A stretch of DNA of 64,000 nt from Chloroflexota bacterium (GTDB taxonomy: Bacteria > Chloroflexota > Anaerolineae > UBA4142), in assembly GCA_016219275.1 (NCBI GenBank), contig JACRBM010000042.1:1-64000 (forward strand). Reading direction: 5' to 3'. A program made the position numbers and the translations under genes. Positions within the stretch are counted from its first letter, which is position 1. Each line of letters starts with the position of its first letter. Under the pieces are notes generated by a model. That model was not told the DNA's origin. It saw only the letters and a program-made list of their open reading frames with translations, and did not search any database. Below are positions 17,810 to 26,086 of this stretch, piece after piece.

Positions 17810-17935
17810 CATATTTGTATTTATGTTTACTAAATCAACTAACAATGTGGGCAAGTCGTTCGAGCCAAAACGACGATAGGCAGTACCGAGGTACTATTGT
17901 TTCAACGGCTCAAATCGGATACGCTCATCGTGAGC

Positions 17936-17960
17936 GGTATTCTGGTCTGACCAGAATACC
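17936..17960 (+). promoter_or_regulatory. perfect FadR/GntR-type operator before the E1 fusion gene
   Basis: Half-sites GGTATTCTGGT and ACCAGAATACC are exact complements separated by CTG. The core TGGTCTGACCA matches the TGGTNNNACCA pattern of FadR-subfamily GntR regulators. It ends 16 bases before the ATG of a protein whose own N-terminus is a FadR-type DNA-binding domain, so autoregulation is likely. A smaller palindrome, AGTACC-GA-GGTACT, lies at 17882-17895. I see no convincing -10/-35 pair here. Confidence 0.85.
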
Positions 17961-17976
17961 ACAATACTGGAGTCGC

Positions 17977-19644
17977 ATGAAAATCCGCCCCGTCTCGTCC
18001 AACACACTCACGCATTCCGTCGTCGAACGTTTGCTCGGCTTGATCAGCGATGGCACCGTCAAACCCGGCGACAAGATGCCGTCGGAACGCACGCTGATGA
18101 AAAAGCTGGGTGTCTCGCGTTCGACGATTCGCGAAGCGTTGCAAGCGTTGTCGGCGAGCCATATCGTCGAGATTCGCCCCGGCGTCGGTACCTTCGTCCA
18201 CGCGCACGCCCGCGATTTGATTCCGCGCGCGCTCGCCAAAAATCGCGTGCCGAAAGACGCGCGCCCGACGAAAACAATTCTGCCGGCGGGCAATGGCAAC
18301 GGACGCGATCATCTTCTCGGCATCACGCCGATTCCTCCCGCGCCGGAAAAACCGATTCACATTCCGAATCTCAAAAAAGATCGGCTCGGCACATTCGATT
18401 TTATTTCGTGGTGGGAACGCGATAAAGTTCAAGCCGCGCGCGTCATGGTGATTGGCGCGGGCGCGCTCGGCAATGAAGTCTTGAAAAATCTCGCGCTGAT
18501 GGGCGTCGGCAATTTATTCGTCGTGGATTTCGACACGATTGAAGCCGCGAATCTTTCGCGCTCGGTTTTGTTTCGCGCGGAGGATAATGGCAAACCCAAA
18601 GCCGAAGTCGCGGCGCGGCGCGTGAAGGAACTCAATCCCGACGTTCACGTGCAATATTTTCAAGGCGATGTGAATACGGCGCTCGGGCTGGGCGTCTTTC
18701 GCCGGATGGACGCGATCATCGGTTGTCTCGATAACCGCGAAGCGCGGCTCTCGATCAATCGGTTCGCGTATCGGCTGAACAAACCCTGGGTGGACGGCGC
18801 GATCCAGGAACTGTTCGGACTCGTGCGCGTGTTCAAGCCGGGCGAAGGCGCGTGCTATGAATGCACGCTCACCGAGCAGGCGCGCCGCGAAATGTCGTTG
18901 CGTTATTCGTGTCCCCTCCTGGCGCGGCAGAATATCTTGCTCGGCAAGGTGCCGACGACGCCGACGATTTCCGCGATTGTCGCGGGCATGCAATCCCAGG
19001 AAGCGCTCAAGTTGATTCACAACATGCCGGTCGAGGCGGGGAAGGTTTTGCACGTCAACGGATTGACGAACGATTTCCACGCGACGGCGTACACGCCGGA
19101 CGAAAATTGCGAGAGCCATTGGGTCTACGGTGACATCCTCGAACTGGATCGCCAAGCGGCGACGACCACGGTCGCCGAGATGCTGCGTCTCGCGCGCGAA
19201 GCGTTGGGCGATGATGCGATTCTCGAACTCGACCAGGAATTTGTGACGCGGCTCGAATGTCATCAATGCGGGACTGTCGCCGAAATTTTCAAGCCGATCT
19301 CGCAAGTCAATTTCAACGACGGCTTGTGCCCGGGTTGCGGCGAGATGCGCGAAGTGCAAATGATTCACACGATTGCCGGCGATGAACCGTTCTTGAATCG
19401 TCCCTTGCTCGCCGTGGGCGTGCCGCCGCTGCATATCGTGCGCGCGCGTAATGAAAACGAATATCGTTTCTTTGAACTCACCGGCGATCTGGCGGATACG
19501 TTGCATTGGTCACACTTTGAGGGCGGCGCGCGATCGGCGCACGCCTCGCGTGTGCGTCTCCATCCGCGTCCGCAAATCAGACTCGGCGATGTGTTGCCGG
19601 ACGAACCGCCGCCGGTCACACGTCCGCGAGTCGTCGTCCACTGA
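17977..19644 (+). CDS. GntR winged-helix domain fused to a ubiquitin-activating (E1/ThiF-like) enzyme
   Basis: 555 residues from the ATG at 17977. Residues 8-75 are a FadR-subfamily GntR winged helix (MPSERTLMKKLGVSRSTIRE; IRPGVGTFV). After a Pro-rich linker (100-140), residues 148-350 are an E1 adenylation domain with VIGAGALGNEVLKNLALMGV, VVDFDTIEAANLSRSVLF and LDNREARLSINR. ACYECTL at 292-298 followed by RYSCPLL recalls the ECTL and catalytic-Cys region of UBA3/UBA2; Cys312 is the likely thioester cysteine. CxxC pairs at 428/431 and 451/454 form a zinc ribbon. The frame is unbroken with uniform codon use, so the fusion looks real. It should adenylate the Ubl proteins encoded downstream and also bind the operator in front of its own gene. 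Starts upstream (17815) are possible but would include the operator. Confidence 0.9.
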   Translation: MKIRPVSSNTLTHSVVERLLGLISDGTVKPGDKMPSERTLMKKLGVSRSTIREALQALSASHIVEIRPGVGTFVHAHARDLIPRALAKNRVPKDARPTKTILPAGNGNGRDHLLGITPIPPAPEKPIHIPNLKKDRLGTFDFISWWERDKVQAARVMVIGAGALGNEVLKNLALMGVGNLFVVDFDTIEAANLSRSVLFRAEDNGKPKAEVAARRVKELNPDVHVQYFQGDVNTALGLGVFRRMDAIIGCLDNREARLSINRFAYRLNKPWVDGAIQELFGLVRVFKPGEGACYECTLTEQARREMSLRYSCPLLARQNILLGKVPTTPTISAIVAGMQSQEALKLIHNMPVEAGKVLHVNGLTNDFHATAYTPDENCESHWVYGDILELDRQAATTTVAEMLRLAREALGDDAILELDQEFVTRLECHQCGTVAEIFKPISQVNFNDGLCPGCGEMREVQMIHTIAGDEPFLNRPLLAVGVPPLHIVRARNENEYRFFELTGDLADTLHWSHFEGGARSAHASRVRLHPRPQIRLGDVLPDEPPPVTRPRVVVH

Positions 19645-19746: not shown

Positions 19747-20676
19747 ATGCAATTCGATGCCCAAATTATTCCATGGCGCGGTTCATCACCGACGCGCCGC
19801 ACGCAGACAAATCGCATGAGCGCCGAACCACGATCCAAATGGGGTTTTCGCATTCGCTTTGCGCTCGGCGCGATCATCGCGCTCGGCTGGGGTTTCCTGC
19901 TCGGCGTTGCACTCTTGCGCGCGAATGCGACGCTCTCATTCTGGTTTGTCGGCGCAGTCATCCCACTCGCGTTCTTTGGCAGTGCGCTCGCGTGTTTCGC
20001 TTTCCAGCGCGCACTTCCCGAATGGCACACGCTCGTGCGATTACTGGCGGCTCTACTTTTCGCGGCGTTGGCGTTGCCGCTCGGATTAGGGTGGGCGTTG
20101 CGCGAGTGGGAACTCGACGCGAGTTTGTTGCTCGCGGTGACGGGAGAACAACTCTGGGAAATCGAATTTGGCATCGCGATCCTGGGTCTGATCGCCGGGA
20201 CGTGGACGGGCTGGGCGCATCCGCCGCAACGTTGGCTCGCGCGTGGCATCGCGGCTCTGCTCGAGCGTCCGACGCGTTTCTTCTCGGCGCTGTTCGAGTT
20301 TGTCACACGAGTCATCGCCAGTATCGGTCGCGCGATTCTGTGGCTGCCGCTCAAGATCATCGCGCTCGTGCGCGGTTTGATAAACGGGATCGCGTCATTT
20401 TTTAGCGCCATGCGAATTGGGATCGTTCGTTTGATTCCGCGACGAAATCGCGTGCGTTTGCCCAAACCATCGTTATTCCATCGCCACGCCGCGCCTCAAG
20501 CGAATGGCAGTGCACGCATCAAAGCCGTCGTCGAAGAGCGATGTCCGTACTGTCTCGATGTGGTCAAGCGCAATGATCCACGCGGGATTAAAGTGTGCGA
20601 GGTGTGTCACACGCCGCATCACGCGGATTGTTGGGCGATCACCGGCAAATGCCAGGTGCCGCATCTCAATACCTAG
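19747..20676 (+). CDS. membrane-anchored prokaryotic RING-finger protein (predicted E3-like)
   Basis: 309 residues. Four hydrophobic spans lie at about 37-58, 62-85, 94-115 and 139-158, then a basic amphipathic stretch (170-250). A C-terminal zinc domain follows: Cys266-x2-Cys269, Cys284-x2-Cys287, His291/292-x2-Cys295, Cys302 and His306, within ERCPYCLDVV and CEVCHTPHHADCWAI. This spacing and the HHADCW block match prokaryotic RING/treble-clef domains found with E2 enzymes. The finger faces the cytoplasm if both ends are inside. It could recruit the E2 to membrane substrates. The start is uncertain: ATG at 19816 (MSAEPRSKWG) would drop a polar 23-residue leader. Confidence 0.82.
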   Translation: MQFDAQIIPWRGSSPTRRTQTNRMSAEPRSKWGFRIRFALGAIIALGWGFLLGVALLRANATLSFWFVGAVIPLAFFGSALACFAFQRALPEWHTLVRLLAALLFAALALPLGLGWALREWELDASLLLAVTGEQLWEIEFGIAILGLIAGTWTGWAHPPQRWLARGIAALLERPTRFFSALFEFVTRVIASIGRAILWLPLKIIALVRGLINGIASFFSAMRIGIVRLIPRRNRVRLPKPSLFHRHAAPQANGSARIKAVVEERCPYCLDVVKRNDPRGIKVCEVCHTPHHADCWAITGKCQVPHLNT

Positions 20677-20784
20677 TTCACAATTTCCCAGAGTTTCCTT
20701 ATTTCCCTCATTTCCCTTGATTCCCCTTGCTTGGGCGGAGGGAACTCTGGGAAATCAAGGAACGCAACCTCGTTGGAGGAATTT

Positions 20785-21648
20785 ATGCCTGATCTCAGTG
20801 TGACTCTCGTTCTACCCGCCGGCGGCGCGCGCACGGCTGAAGTGCCGGACGATGTGCCCGTGCGCGAATTGATGCCGGAACTTATTTCCGTTCTCGAATT
20901 GCCGACGACCGGTCCCGATGGACGACCGATGGGTTATCGGATGGACAGCAAGGCGTTGGGACGCGAATTGCGCGAAGCGGAAACACTGCACGACGCGAAA
21001 ATTCCGCAACATGATCGCTTGATGATTACGGCGGATGTCACTGCCGGCGCGGGCAAGCCCTCCCTGGTTAGCGCGACGCCGCGCTTTCGCCGCCTCAAAG
21101 CCGATCACGACAAGATGCTCGAACTGAAAAAGCAGAGCCAGTTGATTGACTTTGAAGTGGTGGACGCGAAACCTGGGTTTCCGCCGGAAAAATATCTCGT
21201 GACGTTCAAATGCAAAAGCATCGTCGCGGTGGACGCGCAGGGCAATCCGCGTTTCGCCGACAAACACCAGGTCGCGATTTATCTGCACAACGAATATCCG
21301 CATCGCTGGCCCGGCTTGAAATGGCTCACACCGATTTGGCATCCCAACATCAAAGGCGCGAATGGCAGCGTCTGCATTGACGCTGCATGGTGGACTGCCG
21401 CGCGTTCGCTCGACCGGCTCGTGATCATGCTCGGCGAAATGGCGCAATGGAAAAATTTCCACGACGACCCGACCAAGCCGCCGTTTCCCTGGGACGCCGA
21501 AGCCGCCAAGTGGAGTATGAACTATCGTCGCACACACGCAGGTTGTTTTCCGGTGGACACGCGCGAATTGTTGCGCCCGGAACACGCCAAGCCGGCGAAG
21601 AAACCGGTTGCAAAGCTCAAAGCGCGTCCCAAGATCAAACTCAAGTAG
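20785..21648 (+). CDS. ubiquitin-like domain fused to an E2 (UBC) conjugating enzyme
   Basis: 287 residues from the ATG at 20785, 4 bases after TGGAGGA. Residues 1-87 are a YukD/ubiquitin-like beta-grasp domain ending TADVTAG. Residues 105-245 are a UBC fold with the E2 signature HPN (186-188) and SVCID, whose Cys197 is the expected thioester residue. The tail is Lys/Pro-rich. The Ubl part is nearly the same as the free Ubl made by the next gene (about 71 of 87 identical by hand). It should take Ubl from the E1 and pass it on with the RING protein. The fused Ubl could act as a built-in regulator or be released by the JAMM peptidases after TAG. The gap before it (20677-20784) holds a hairpin with arms TTTCCCAGAGTT and AACTCTGGGAAA. 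Confidence 0.9.
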   Translation: MPDLSVTLVLPAGGARTAEVPDDVPVRELMPELISVLELPTTGPDGRPMGYRMDSKALGRELREAETLHDAKIPQHDRLMITADVTAGAGKPSLVSATPRFRRLKADHDKMLELKKQSQLIDFEVVDAKPGFPPEKYLVTFKCKSIVAVDAQGNPRFADKHQVAIYLHNEYPHRWPGLKWLTPIWHPNIKGANGSVCIDAAWWTAARSLDRLVIMLGEMAQWKNFHDDPTKPPFPWDAEAAKWSMNYRRTHAGCFPVDTRELLRPEHAKPAKKPVAKLKARPKIKLK

Positions 21649-21771
21649 CGAACGGCGGATGGCGAATAGCAAATGGCAAATGGCAAATGGAAATTGCCAG
21701 AGGAACCAAGTATCGAGATTGAACGTGTCCACTCCAACTTCCAATCTCGAAATTCAAGTAGGAGGAACAGA

Positions 21772-22038
21772 ATGGCTGATGTACCCGTGACTCTCGTTTT
21801 GCCGGCAGGCGGATCGCGCACGGCAGAAGTGCCGAGCGATGTGCCCGTGCGTGAGTTGATGCCGGAACTCGCGTCGTCACTGCAATTGCCGACGACGGGA
21901 CCGGACGGCAGACCGATGGCATATCGGATGGATAGCAAGGCGCTCGGACGCGAACTGCGCGAAGACGAGACGCTTTCCGCCGCGGGCGTTCCGCAAAATG
22001 ATCGCCTGATGCTGACCGCCGATGTGACCGCGGGCTAA
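21772..22038 (+). CDS. free ubiquitin-like protein (YukD-like beta-grasp) ending in Gly
   Basis: 88 residues, ATG at 21772, with AGGAGG 7 bases upstream. The protein is a stand-alone copy of the Ubl domain fused to the E2: VTLVLPAGG, DVPVRELMPEL, LPTTGPDGRPM, and the end TADVTAG followed directly by the stop. A C-terminal Gly without extension means it needs no processing before adenylation by the E1. It ends in AG rather than the GG of eukaryotic ubiquitin. It is not ThiS or MoaD by sequence. Probably the modifier that is conjugated. Confidence 0.88.
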   Translation: MADVPVTLVLPAGGSRTAEVPSDVPVRELMPELASSLQLPTTGPDGRPMAYRMDSKALGRELREDETLSAAGVPQNDRLMLTADVTAG

Positions 22039-22150: not shown

Positions 22151-23269
22151 ATGACTGAGATTGAAACGTATCGCGCGCTGTCCATCGCGCCGACCCAGGT
22201 AGAGAACGCCGCGCCGGTCTTGTTCGAATTGATCGGCGATTCGACCGAGATTGGTTCGGCGGACGACAACGCGATTGTGCTCGCGAATCCCAACGTCGCG
22301 CTGCATCATCTCGAAGTGCGCCGCGTAGATGGGCGCGATCACTTGCTCATCAACTTGAGCGAACGGCGGCGCGCGCGCGACCTGACCTGGTTCAAATATC
22401 GCCGGGGCGATGCGTATTGGTGTCCGCGTCACGGCAGTATCGCGCGGCTCGATGCGCGGGGTTGGTGCGCGAAATGCCGCACGCGGCGCGGCTCGCTGTG
22501 GTTGATGCGTCCGCTCACACCGGGGGATGCGTTCGACGTGGGACGCGCGTTTCGCGCGACGTATCTCGTGCCAGAACGCGCGAATCAAACCAAACTGCCG
22601 CCGCGCCAAGTTCCCCCGCGCGATGCCTTTGACCGACCGCGTAAAATCGCGATTCCGACGACTGCACCGCAAATCGCGACCCAGGACTTGCCGACCGATG
22701 ATTCGAATCTGTGGCGTTGGCAACCGGCGGAGGCGCCGTTTCCGATCTTTTTGCATCAGCGCGTCAACGTGGATGTCACGCGCCACGCGCGCCAGAATCG
22801 TGATCGCGAAGTGGGCGGCGTGTTGATTGGCGAGGTCTGCCGCGACCAGGATGGGCATCTGTTCGTCGTCGCGTCGCACGCGATCAAAGCCGAATTCGCG
22901 CAAGAATCGCGTGGACAGTTGACCTTTACACACAACACCTGGCTCAAGATTCATCACACGTTGGAAGCGCAATTTCCCGGCAAACTGATTGTCGGTTGGT
23001 ACCATACGCATCCAGGGTGGAGCATTTTTCTATCGGACTGGGATTTATTCATTCATCAAAATTTTTTCAAACAACCCTGGCAAGTCGCGCTCGTCATAGA
23101 CCCATCGCTAGATCGCGCCGGTTTCTTTGTGTGGAAAGATAATCAGGTTTGCAACCCGCAAGCCCCGGTTGAGCCGTTTCGACTCGCCGAAGTAGAATGG
23201 TCGGATATCGCGCGACCACGCGTGCGGATCAAGTTGACCGATCCGCATGGCGCATCCAAGGTCAAATGA
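22151..23269 (+). CDS. FHA-like / zinc-knuckle / JAMM (MPN+) isopeptidase
   Basis: 372 residues. An FHA-like N-terminus (about 25-80: TEIGSADDNAIVLANPNVALHHLEVRR) would bind phosphothreonine partners. A zinc knuckle follows (Cys91, His94, Cys106, Cys109). The C-terminal JAMM domain (about 200-330) has catalytic Glu220 in REVGGVLIGE, His285 and His287 in WYHTHPG, Ser295 and Asp298: a complete zinc metallo-deubiquitinase signature. It would remove or process the Ubl. It lies between the free Ubl and a second JAMM gene, in the same direction with short gaps. No strong ribosome site is visible before the ATG at 22151. Confidence 0.88.
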   Translation: MTEIETYRALSIAPTQVENAAPVLFELIGDSTEIGSADDNAIVLANPNVALHHLEVRRVDGRDHLLINLSERRRARDLTWFKYRRGDAYWCPRHGSIARLDARGWCAKCRTRRGSLWLMRPLTPGDAFDVGRAFRATYLVPERANQTKLPPRQVPPRDAFDRPRKIAIPTTAPQIATQDLPTDDSNLWRWQPAEAPFPIFLHQRVNVDVTRHARQNRDREVGGVLIGEVCRDQDGHLFVVASHAIKAEFAQESRGQLTFTHNTWLKIHHTLEAQFPGKLIVGWYHTHPGWSIFLSDWDLFIHQNFFKQPWQVALVIDPSLDRAGFFVWKDNQVCNPQAPVEPFRLAEVEWSDIARPRVRIKLTDPHGASKVK

Positions 23270-23287: not shown

Positions 23288-23944
23288 ATGACAACCCGAA
23301 TCAAGTTACTCGACTGGGAACCGGCGACCATCTGCGAAGCGCCGATGCCGCTCGACGACGCGTTGCGTTGGAATTCACGATACGAAGCCGCGGTGAACCC
23401 GCGTATCGCAATCTTTTTCGCCCAGTCCGCGTACATCAAGTGCATCGAACACACGCGCAGCGATATGGATAGCGAGGTCGGCGGCGCGCTCATCGGCAAG
23501 GTGTGCATAGACCCGCAAACGGAACAGCAATACATTCTGATTCAGGACGTTATCCCCGCGCTCTACACTCAAGCCGGCGAAACACACGTGACCTTTACGC
23601 ACGAAACGTTGATCCACCTGAACACCGAACTGGAAGACCGCTTTCCCGGCAAACGCATGGTCGGTTGGTACCACACGCATCCGCGTCTCGGCGTGTTCAT
23701 GTCCGGTTACGATACCTGGTTGCATCGGCATTTCTTCCACGATTCGACCCAGGTCGCGCTCGTCGTAGACCCCGAGCGCAACCAAGGCGGCTTTTTCTGT
23801 TGGAGCGCGCAAGGCGACTTGGATCCGGTCAATTACACCGGGTTTTACGAGTGGAGTGATCGGAACGATGACAGCATTATCGGATGGACGAACGTGTCGC
23901 CGGTCGTGAATGGCGCGGAGTTGGATCTGGTGGCGGTGGCGTGA
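23288..23944 (+). CDS. JAMM/Mov34 metallopeptidase, second copy
   Basis: 218 residues, with GAAGGAG upstream and 18 bases after the previous gene. The JAMM domain is complete: Glu63 in SEVGGALIGK, His129 and His131 in WYHTHPR, Ser139 and Asp142. It aligns closely with the JAMM half of its neighbour, including the RFPGK lead-in, so the two arose by duplication. It lacks the FHA and zinc parts. Two active peptidases suggest different tasks, for example Ubl-E2 cleavage and substrate deconjugation, but this is inference. Confidence 0.9.
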   Translation: MTTRIKLLDWEPATICEAPMPLDDALRWNSRYEAAVNPRIAIFFAQSAYIKCIEHTRSDMDSEVGGALIGKVCIDPQTEQQYILIQDVIPALYTQAGETHVTFTHETLIHLNTELEDRFPGKRMVGWYHTHPRLGVFMSGYDTWLHRHFFHDSTQVALVVDPERNQGGFFCWSAQGDLDPVNYTGFYEWSDRNDDSIIGWTNVSPVVNGAELDLVAVA

Positions 23945-23991: not shown

Positions 23992-24852
23992 ATGAGTTTG
24001 CGAATGCGCGTTTATTATTACGCGGTGCTGGGTGCGCTGGGCGCGCTCATCGGTTGGCGCATCAGTGACACGCTTGGATTCATGCGCGGCGTGAATGTAT
24101 ACGTGAACGATCTCGTGCTGGGCGGCATCATCGGCTTGTGCCTGGGTCTCTTGATCGGCGCGAGCGAGGGATTGTTGGCGCGCTCGTGGTATCGCGCGGC
24201 GCGTGCGGGCGCGCTCGCCGGTGGCATTGGATTGCTCGCCGGCGCGATTGGTTTGCCGGTTGGCGAATTCGTCTTCCAAATCACCGGCGGCGAATTGATC
24301 GGACGCGCGCTGGGGTGGGCGTTGTTTGGCGCGCTCATCGGTTTGTCCGAAGGCGTCACGAGTGGAACACAAATGTGGAAAGGCGCGGTCGGCGGCGTGC
24401 TGGGTGGACTCCTCGGCGGCATTGTGCTGTTCGTTTTGCAATCGCTCATCGGCGCGACGGTCATCGGCAAGATGCTGGGACTCGTCTTGCTCGGCGCGGC
24501 AGTCGGCGTGTTCATCGCGTTGATCGTCGTTCTGCTCTCGCGCGCGTGGCTCGAAGTGGTGAGCGGCAAGTTAAAAGGCACCGAGTTCATTCTCGACAAG
24601 TATCTGCACGCGCACGGACCGGCGGCGATCATCGGGAGCAACGATTTCAAAGCGGACATCGCGTTGCCCGATCCTGGGATCGCGCCGCAGCACGCGCGCT
24701 TGAAAGGCGCGGGCGCGTACTTTGTCATCGAAGATATGAGCATTGGCAAAGGTACGTTCGTGGATGGAAAAAAAGTTGAGGCCGCGCGTCTGGCGAACAA
24801 CGCGTCCATCCGGGTCGGCAACACGATGATGATTTATCACGAACGACATTAG
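23992..24852 (+). CDS. polytopic membrane protein with C-terminal FHA domain
   Basis: 286 residues. Residues 1-190 are Gly/Ala-rich hydrophobic spans with glycine-zipper-like patterns (LGGIIGLCLGLLIGA, GGVLGGLLGGIVLF), about six segments. Residues 195-285 form a cytoplasmic FHA domain: IIGSNDFKADIALPDPGI, APQHARL, GKGTFVDGKKV, ASIRVGN. It would be a membrane receptor for threonine-phosphorylated proteins. A ribosome site AAAGGAG precedes the ATG. No kinase is encoded nearby. Same operon as the JAMM genes. Confidence 0.85.
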   Translation: MSLRMRVYYYAVLGALGALIGWRISDTLGFMRGVNVYVNDLVLGGIIGLCLGLLIGASEGLLARSWYRAARAGALAGGIGLLAGAIGLPVGEFVFQITGGELIGRALGWALFGALIGLSEGVTSGTQMWKGAVGGVLGGLLGGIVLFVLQSLIGATVIGKMLGLVLLGAAVGVFIALIVVLLSRAWLEVVSGKLKGTEFILDKYLHAHGPAAIIGSNDFKADIALPDPGIAPQHARLKGAGAYFVIEDMSIGKGTFVDGKKVEAARLANNASIRVGNTMMIYHERH

Positions 24853-24874
24853 CCACACCCTTAAGGGTGTGGCT
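24851..24874 (+). terminator. perfect hairpin overlapping the FHA gene stop
   Basis: AGCCACACCC and GGGTGTGGCT form a 10-bp stem with a TTAA loop, starting inside the stop codon of the FHA gene and ending 9 bases before the next start. There is no T-run, so it may act as an RNA stabiliser or translational boundary and not as a full terminator. Confidence 0.6.
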
Positions 24875-24883
24875 AAAAGGACG

Positions 24884-26086
24884 ATGAAAATGAAAACCTG
24901 GTTTCGATCATTCATCCTCGCGTGCACGATGGCGCTCGTCGCGACGATAAACACATACGCGCAAACGCCGGTCGTCATCAATGTGACCCAAGTGGACACC
25001 TCGCGCTTTCCGCAAGTAGATGTGTACATTTCGGTGACGGACGCGAATGGCAATCCGGTACGAAATGTGCCGGCAAGCGCGCTGCAAGTTCAAGAAAACG
25101 GCAAGACGGTCGCGGCAACGGCGACGACGCGCTCCGGCGACCTGGGTCCAGTGAGTACGATCCTCATCGTAGATCGCAGCGGTAGCATGGCGCGTAGCGG
25201 CAAGATGGACGGTGCGAAGCAAGCTGCGACGACGTTCGTGAATCAAATGCGTTCGGGTGATCGCGCCGCGTTGGTGCAGTTCGACACGGAAATCGAAACT
25301 CTGCAATCATTGACCGACAACAAGAACGCGCTGCTTGCCGCAATTCCAAAACTCGTCCCGCGCGGTAACACGGCGATGTACGACGCGCTCGGTCAAGCGA
25401 GCAGGTTTTTCGAATCGGCGCAGGGACGCAAAGCGGTCATCGTCGTGACGGATGGCATGGACAACGCGAGCAACCTCAGCCGCGATGCGATGTTGAATTC
25501 CGCGAATTCGAGCGGTTATTCGATCTACACGATTGGTCTGGGCGCGCAAGCGGTGGGTACGAATAGTCAGGAAGGCATTGACGAGCCGGTGCTCCAAGAG
25601 ATCGCGCGCGCGTCGTTGGGCGAATACTATTACGCGCCGGACGCGAGTCAACTCGGCACGCTGTATCAGCAAATCGCGTCGCGCATTCAAAACGAGTACA
25701 AGTTGACGTACACCTCGACTGCCGCGCTGCGCGATGGATTGAAACGCGCGATTGTGGTGACCGCGCCGGGCTTGGGCACGACGCGCGCGGATTACAATCC
25801 GGGCGGCGTGATTCCCGAAGTTGAGCCGCAAGGATGGTCGTGGGTGTGGTTTATGCTCGCGTTGATTCTGCTCGTCGCGCTGTTCTTTGCGCCGCAAGGA
25901 GCGCGTTGGGTGTTCGCGCGCGCGACGCCCGCGCCCGCACCAAAGTCGCGAGTGCGATTGACGGAGGGCGCAACGACCCCCGCGCCAAGCTCACCGCGTC
26001 CCTCGCGCATCAAGATCAAGAAGCCGGCAACCGCGGATGCGACGCGGCAAAAGTTGCCGTGGGACGAGGAGCCATCCAAGCATTGA
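24884..26086 (+). CDS. secreted, membrane-anchored von Willebrand factor A (VWA) domain protein
   Basis: About 400 residues. The ATG at 24884 or 24890 opens a signal peptide (FILACTMALVATINTYAQ). A short N-terminal beta domain is followed by a VWA domain (about 85-275) with a complete metal-ion site: DRSGSMARS, Thr in GNTAMYD, and VVTDGMDNAS. Near 320-340 is a membrane span (WFMLALILLVALFF), then a basic Pro-rich cytoplasmic tail. VWA domains bind proteins through Mg2+. It could be the outside partner of the membrane RING/FHA proteins, but only neighbourhood supports that. Confidence 0.85.
   Translation: MKMKTWFRSFILACTMALVATINTYAQTPVVINVTQVDTSRFPQVDVYISVTDANGNPVRNVPASALQVQENGKTVAATATTRSGDLGPVSTILIVDRSGSMARSGKMDGAKQAATTFVNQMRSGDRAALVQFDTEIETLQSLTDNKNALLAAIPKLVPRGNTAMYDALGQASRFFESAQGRKAVIVVTDGMDNASNLSRDAMLNSANSSGYSIYTIGLGAQAVGTNSQEGIDEPVLQEIARASLGEYYYAPDASQLGTLYQQIASRIQNEYKLTYTSTAALRDGLKRAIVVTAPGLGTTRADYNPGGVIPEVEPQGWSWVWFMLALILLVALFFAPQGARWVFARATPAPAPKSRVRLTEGATTPAPSSPRPSRIKIKKPATADATRQKLPWDEEPSKH

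Follow-up and report, generated by a model that had tools for sequence, protein, structure and literature searches.

The window analysed here, a stretch of 64,000 nucleotides from a Chloroflexota bacterium (assembly GCA_016219275.1, contig JACRBM010000042.1, positions 1 to 64,000 of the forward strand), contains a gene for a membrane-anchored protein that ends in a RING-type finger. By Pfam domains, the gene order around it reads GntR-E1, RING, UBL-E2, UBL, JAB (with a weak FHA match), JAB, membrane-FHA and VWA (Table 1). The RING reading frame spans 309 codons with zero internal stops; on the complementary strand the same register offers no open frame and is interrupted by stops. Starting instead from the ATG at codon 24 (about 19816), which is in frame, would yield a protein of 286 residues. 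This later start is plausible because the orthologues have less N-terminal sequence and residues 1-30 are of low confidence in the AlphaFold2 model, and it would suit the orthologue lengths better than the annotated start, which is possibly early. The initial annotation had placed the gene between those of an E1 and an E2, and domain searches bear this out, with a ThiF match (2e-58) on one side and a UBC-type E2 match (7e-10) on the other.

Table 1 Genes and protein features of the conjugation locus, with positions in the window
Feature	Position	Strand	Basis
E1, GntR winged helix and ThiF adenylation domain	17815..19644	+	Pfam, PDB matches
Membrane-anchored Prok-RING_1 protein gene, 309 aa	19747..20676	+	Translation; PF14446; 50 orthologous loci
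Four-helix membrane bundle, aa 31-152	19837..20202	+	AlphaFold2, hydropathy, charge pattern
Long basic amphipathic helix, aa 175-224	20269..20418	+	AlphaFold2; net charge
RING-type finger, aa 266-306	20542..20664	+	Ligand conservation, fold model
E2, YukD-type UBL and UBC domain	20731..21648	+	Pfam YukD and UQ_con; PDB; conservation
Stand-alone YukD-type UBL ending TADVTAG	21673..22038	+	Pfam
JAB/JAMM peptidase, weak N-terminal FHA match	22151..23269	+	Pfam; HTHPGWSIFLSDWD motif in translation
Second JAB/JAMM peptidase	23288..23944	+	Pfam; JAMM motif conserved in 45 sequences
Membrane protein with C-terminal FHA domain	23992..24852	+	Pfam; conserved position
VWA-domain protein, closing the conserved block	24869..26086	+	Pfam; conserved position

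The partner genes retain the residues expected to matter for conjugation. The E1, for which an ATG near 17977 is probably the real start, finds UBA7, UBA1, UBA2, UBA5 and ThiF among its PDB matches and keeps a conserved Cys in RYSCPLLAR along with a CxxC...CPxCG arrangement; judged by its place, the RYSCPLLAR Cys may be the counterpart of the eukaryotic E1 Cys. The GntR domain is fused to the E1 in all 44 of the complete E1s, and an E1 with such an N-terminal DNA-binding domain may double as a transcription regulator. The E2, probably starting at an ATG near 20785, has HPN and the catalytic Cys (HPNIKGANGSVCID), counts UBE2K and UBE2D among its nearest solved E2s in the PDB, and is present in the genome as a single copy, in this operon. 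For the stand-alone UBL the real start is probably an ATG near 21772. Its AG end recurs in 46 of 49 copies, and a modifier with such an end would need no processing before activation; the UBL fused to the E2 shows the same TAG at its junction, which is possibly cleavable by the JABs. In both JABs the H-x-H-x10-D motif is intact. The membrane FHA and VWA genes (23992-26086) form a constant end to the operon, a hint of phospho-dependent control or of a membrane complex.

Architecture and fold of the anchored finger protein

Four membrane spans and an amphipathic basic stretch had been read from the sequence, and both are upheld by structure prediction. AlphaFold2, together with an alignment of 37 orthologues, places membrane helices at residues 31-62, 65-89, 95-120 and 134-152, with pLDDT mostly over 90 across the bundle, although Kyte-Doolittle hydropathy by itself gives just three clear peaks in this region and the fourth helix is weaker. 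The amphipathic helix falls within a segment (residues 153-262) whose net charge is +16 here and +16.8 in the orthologue mean, and between it and the finger AlphaFold2 predicts a disordered, low-confidence linker (residues 225-260). The segment charges of this protein are +6 for the N-terminus, +1 for loop 2-3, -3 for loop 3-4 and +16 for the tail; the orthologue means follow the same signs, with loop 3-4 neutral to negative and the other three segments positive. This pattern is consistent with an N-in/C-in topology, and thus fits a finger that would face the cytoplasm. A Foldseek search with the full-length model returned no significant match for the membrane part; the finger alone again recovered the EL5 RING.

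The C-terminal RING-like finger with eight ligands was likewise recovered. The ligands are C266, C269, C284, C287, H292, C295, C302 and H306, and the pattern C-x2-C-x14-C-x2-C-x4-H-x2-C-x6(7)-C-x3-H occurs in 49 of 49 orthologues with a complete C-terminus; a fiftieth, whose C-terminus is lost at a contig end, was left outside this count. A one-metal zinc ribbon was considered and is disfavoured, given that the conserved ligands number eight rather than four. The sole Pfam domain in the protein is Prok-RING_1 (PF14446) at residues 263-302, at 29.3 bits a narrow pass over the curated gathering cut-off of 29.1; a six-frame genome search with the same profile scored the gene at 33.7 bits and found no second copy in the genome. 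The family's ligand set, C-C / C-C / H-C / C-(C or H), is present in the finger, with His as the eighth ligand (C-x3-H) where Planctomycetota and other relatives have Cys (C-x4-C). The last pair, C302-x3-H306, also differs from the C-x2-C of the canonical RING finger (C3HC4/C3H2C3). Mean identity to this protein across orthologues is 0.74 in the finger as against 0.18 in the membrane part, suggesting that selection holds the finger to an exact form but asks of the anchor mainly that it be hydrophobic. NCBIfam and PADLOC contain no model that matches the protein.

We then compared the finger with known RING folds, as the initial annotation had suggested. A finger-only AlphaFold model built with 53 relatives reached a mean pLDDT of 86.5, and its best VIA-align match was the RNF165 RING bound to UbcH5b~Ub (Z 4.3, rmsd 2.0, 41 residues), with the EL5 RING-H2 and RBX1 among the further nearest solved folds. 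A Pygo PHD finger is also close (Z 4.1), and with the RING and PHD matches tied at Z values of at most 4.3 the fold comparison decides neither way. Searching the PDB by sequence with the profile of the finger produced marginal matches only, to PHD, nuclear-receptor and RING fingers, and these carry no weight here.

This tie lends some weight to a first alternative, in which the finger is a PHD-like docking or reader module that is tethered to the membrane and recruits UBL conjugates, the E1 or the E2 to it without stimulating transfer. Several residues by which RING fingers engage E2s are indeed missing. RING-type E3s commonly, though not universally, carry a linchpin Arg or Lys; after the eighth ligand here it is absent, and H306 is mostly followed by Leu/Tyr and, one position on, by Asn/His among the orthologues. 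E2s that partner RINGs commonly carry a Phe in loop 4; the operon E2 has a strongly conserved Gln or His in its place, and a likewise strongly conserved TA(S/A) instead of SPA in loop 7, where UBE2K has AAA. The fusion of UBL and E2 might, moreover, already give efficient transfer, and the operon E2 may transfer without any E3, the validated bacterial systems being listed as UBL, E1, E2 and protease (PMC12687455). Burroughs and colleagues reportedly noted in 2011 that not all prokaryotic RING fingers are ubiquitin-related. Set against this are the Pfam assignment to Prok-RING_1 beside E1, E2, UBL and JAB genes, and three finger residues that by sequence position would lie roughly where RINGs meet E2s: Y/F268, an aromatic flanked by the first and second ligands; W296, which never varies; and P305, which hardly varies and adjoins the last ligand. 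On this evidence we regard a docking or reader role as unlikely.

Distribution and genomic setting of the operon

A scan of genome contigs with the finger protein gave 65 loci, of which 50 are orthologous operons, labelled nearly all as Anaerolineae, Anaerolineales or Chloroflexi. The E1 gene lies directly upstream and the E2 gene directly downstream of the RING gene in 49 of these 50, the exception being a contig end, and farther downstream the conserved set runs from a UBL with an AG end through one JAMM peptidase gene or two to the genes for the FHA and VWA proteins. In one of the loci (L080) the E2, FHA and VWA genes each fall into overlapping frames, which points to frameshifts or to errors in sequencing. 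Because these first loci had been selected by the RING, we searched in reverse from the E2. Among the 16 E2-side loci that were read, 15 carry a finger gene and the remaining one is cut by a contig end; several of the 16 share contigs with the RING-side set, but the nine with a more distant E2 lie on other contigs. In eight of these nine the finger is present, in the layout E1-UBL-E2-JAB-JAB-RING and usually with a second finger gene; where both occur, a soluble finger protein is paired with one that crosses the membrane once. This divergent layout, E1-UBL-E2-JAB-JAB-RING(-RING), was seen in another family of the class (L045, L046, L126-L134). Planctomycetota loci read UBL-E2-JAB-E1-JAB-E2-RING-RING, and in Verrucomicrobia the same finger family adjoins E1, E2, UBL and JAB genes. 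The recurrence of the finger across layouts suggests that it is a standing partner of E1/E2/UBL/JAB sets.

The surroundings of the operon bear on a second alternative, that the whole block is an anti-phage module like Bil or the CBASS-type E1/E2/JAB systems, with the RING protein as its targeting part; such a function can be combined with an E3 activity. Reported bacterial UBL systems serve mainly phage defence (PMC12687455), PADLOC finds the E1 and JABs weakly similar to its E1-E2, BilD and JAB models, and the distribution is patchy, with a related E2 in 28 of the 298 genomes of the class. PADLOC has, however, no match for the RING, E2, UBL, FHA or VWA proteins, and homologues of BilA-D were not found with it, the E1 alone being weakly BilD-like (27 bits). 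The gene content is constant, and no relative was found in viral contigs. Of the 38 loci whose upstream sequence is long enough to tell, 24 have the E1 directly after rplL, at the end of a nusG-rplK-rplA-rplJ-rplL block, and in 22 of 39 lexA adjoins the VWA gene, a neighbourhood which speaks for a locus that is fixed in that clade and passed on vertically. The rplL-adjacent arrangement with lexA nearby was observed in L059, L060 and about 22 more loci; upstream of the operon in the window itself, translations indicate sugar-transport-like genes and a LacI-type regulator, not rplL. Taken as a whole, a defence function appears improbable for this operon.

Two further scenarios fare worse. The membrane protein could be the main substrate of the pathway, with the finger holding the E2 so that it modifies the protein's own cytoplasmic tail or those of its partners; the membrane FHA and VWA proteins, encoded close by throughout, could be such partners, and the tail carries many basic residues, but an invariant tail lysine was sought in the alignment and none was found, so that we consider this very improbable. 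That the YukD-type UBL instead marks a type VII secretion system of which the membrane protein is a component is hardly credible. YukD (PF08817) does take its name from the WXG100 system, and the classic form of YukD does not undergo conjugation (PMC1779556), yet the genome has no match to a WXG100 protein, its YukD domains are confined to the operon, and E1, E2 and JAB genes are constant neighbours.

A probable membrane-bound E3 and its known counterparts

The explanation that we favour, at a probability of roughly 0.7, is that the protein serves as RING-type E3 in a bacterial ubiquitin-like conjugation pathway that is complete in itself. Family membership and gene context make this reading likely, and conservation across the Chloroflexota lineage beside genes for the E1, the E2, the modifier and its removal suggests that the protein is probably the ligase that chooses the pathway's substrates. 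The initial annotation had likewise called it a probable E3; the RING-type finger, the anchor and the E1/E2/UBL/JAB company agree with that call, whereas the absent linchpin, the missing loop-4 Phe and the fold tie speak against it. An archaeal RING protein from an E1/E2/ubiquitin operon is a working E3 (PMC5654768).

In the proposed mechanism, the E1 would adenylate the AG-ended UBL and hand it, via its own Cys, to the UBL-fused E2. The finger, held at the cytoplasmic face of the membrane by the four helices and the flexible linker, would recruit the charged E2 and promote transfer to lysines of targets at or near the membrane, and the JAMM peptidases would take the modifier off again. That the finger binds the E2 and stimulates discharge, what kind of targets it serves, and that the JABs act on these conjugates are predictions of this model. 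Substrates in the membrane or envelope, as first annotated, are possible, the anchor being the sole indication of them. Proteasomal degradation of the tagged proteins appears unlikely, as the genome has no match to PF00227. One may go further and postulate a chromosomally fixed pathway, independent of defence and of the proteasome, in which a dedicated membrane RING E3 takes part in the tagging and untagging of membrane proteins as a housekeeping signal and the GntR-E1 acts in addition as a DNA-binding regulator; we offer this fuller picture tentatively and hold it to be doubtful, if somewhat more than a bare conjecture.

An E3 of this kind would be of interest in several respects. As the RING gene sits lineage-wide between E1 and E2 with minimal partners, it makes RING E3 use in bacteria directly testable. 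If the finger is active without a linchpin and facing a Phe-less E2, it may represent an early or alternative route of RING transfer; if it is active while bound to the membrane, it would parallel the membrane E3s of eukaryotes.

Eukaryotic membrane RING E3s, for example the MARCH proteins and Doa10, share with this protein a membrane anchor and a cytoplasmic RING-type finger; the likeness is one of layout, not of established sequence homology, and the second metal site differs in ligand identity and spacing. A closer likeness in gene content is the srfp system of Caldiarchaeum subterraneum (PMC5654768), in which a RING gene accompanies ubiquitin, E1 and E2 genes and a neighbouring JAMM peptidase. 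Its product, demonstrated to act as an E3, is a RING-H2 of small size that carries a linchpin Arg as well as the Ile and Trp for contact with the E2 (PMC5654768), whereas the protein described here is membrane-bound, has no linchpin and is a putative E3, and its modifier is YukD-type with an AG end. The Bil and Bub operons also unite a UBL, E1, E2 and JAMM peptidase. A 2025 review gives UBL, E1, E2 and protease as the components of the validated bacterial systems, Bil and Bub included, and lists no RING for these two (PMC12687455); the operon in the window differs from them also in its GntR-fused E1, its UBL-fused E2 and its location outside defence surroundings.

The nearest kin are the Prok-RING_1 relatives (PF14446), with which this protein shares the finger, by curated profile, and the company of E1, E2, UBL and JAB genes; here the finger forms the very C-terminal end of the chain and is preceded by a four-helix membrane bundle. 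Prokaryotic RING E3s accompanied by E1, E2, JAB and YukD-like modifiers are said to have been proposed by Burroughs, Iyer and Aravind in 2011. The public family library already has an entry for Prok-RING_1, and the protein belongs to this predicted kind; its local peculiarities are the membrane anchor, the C-x3-H end of the finger, the UBL-E2 fusion and the GntR-E1 fusion.
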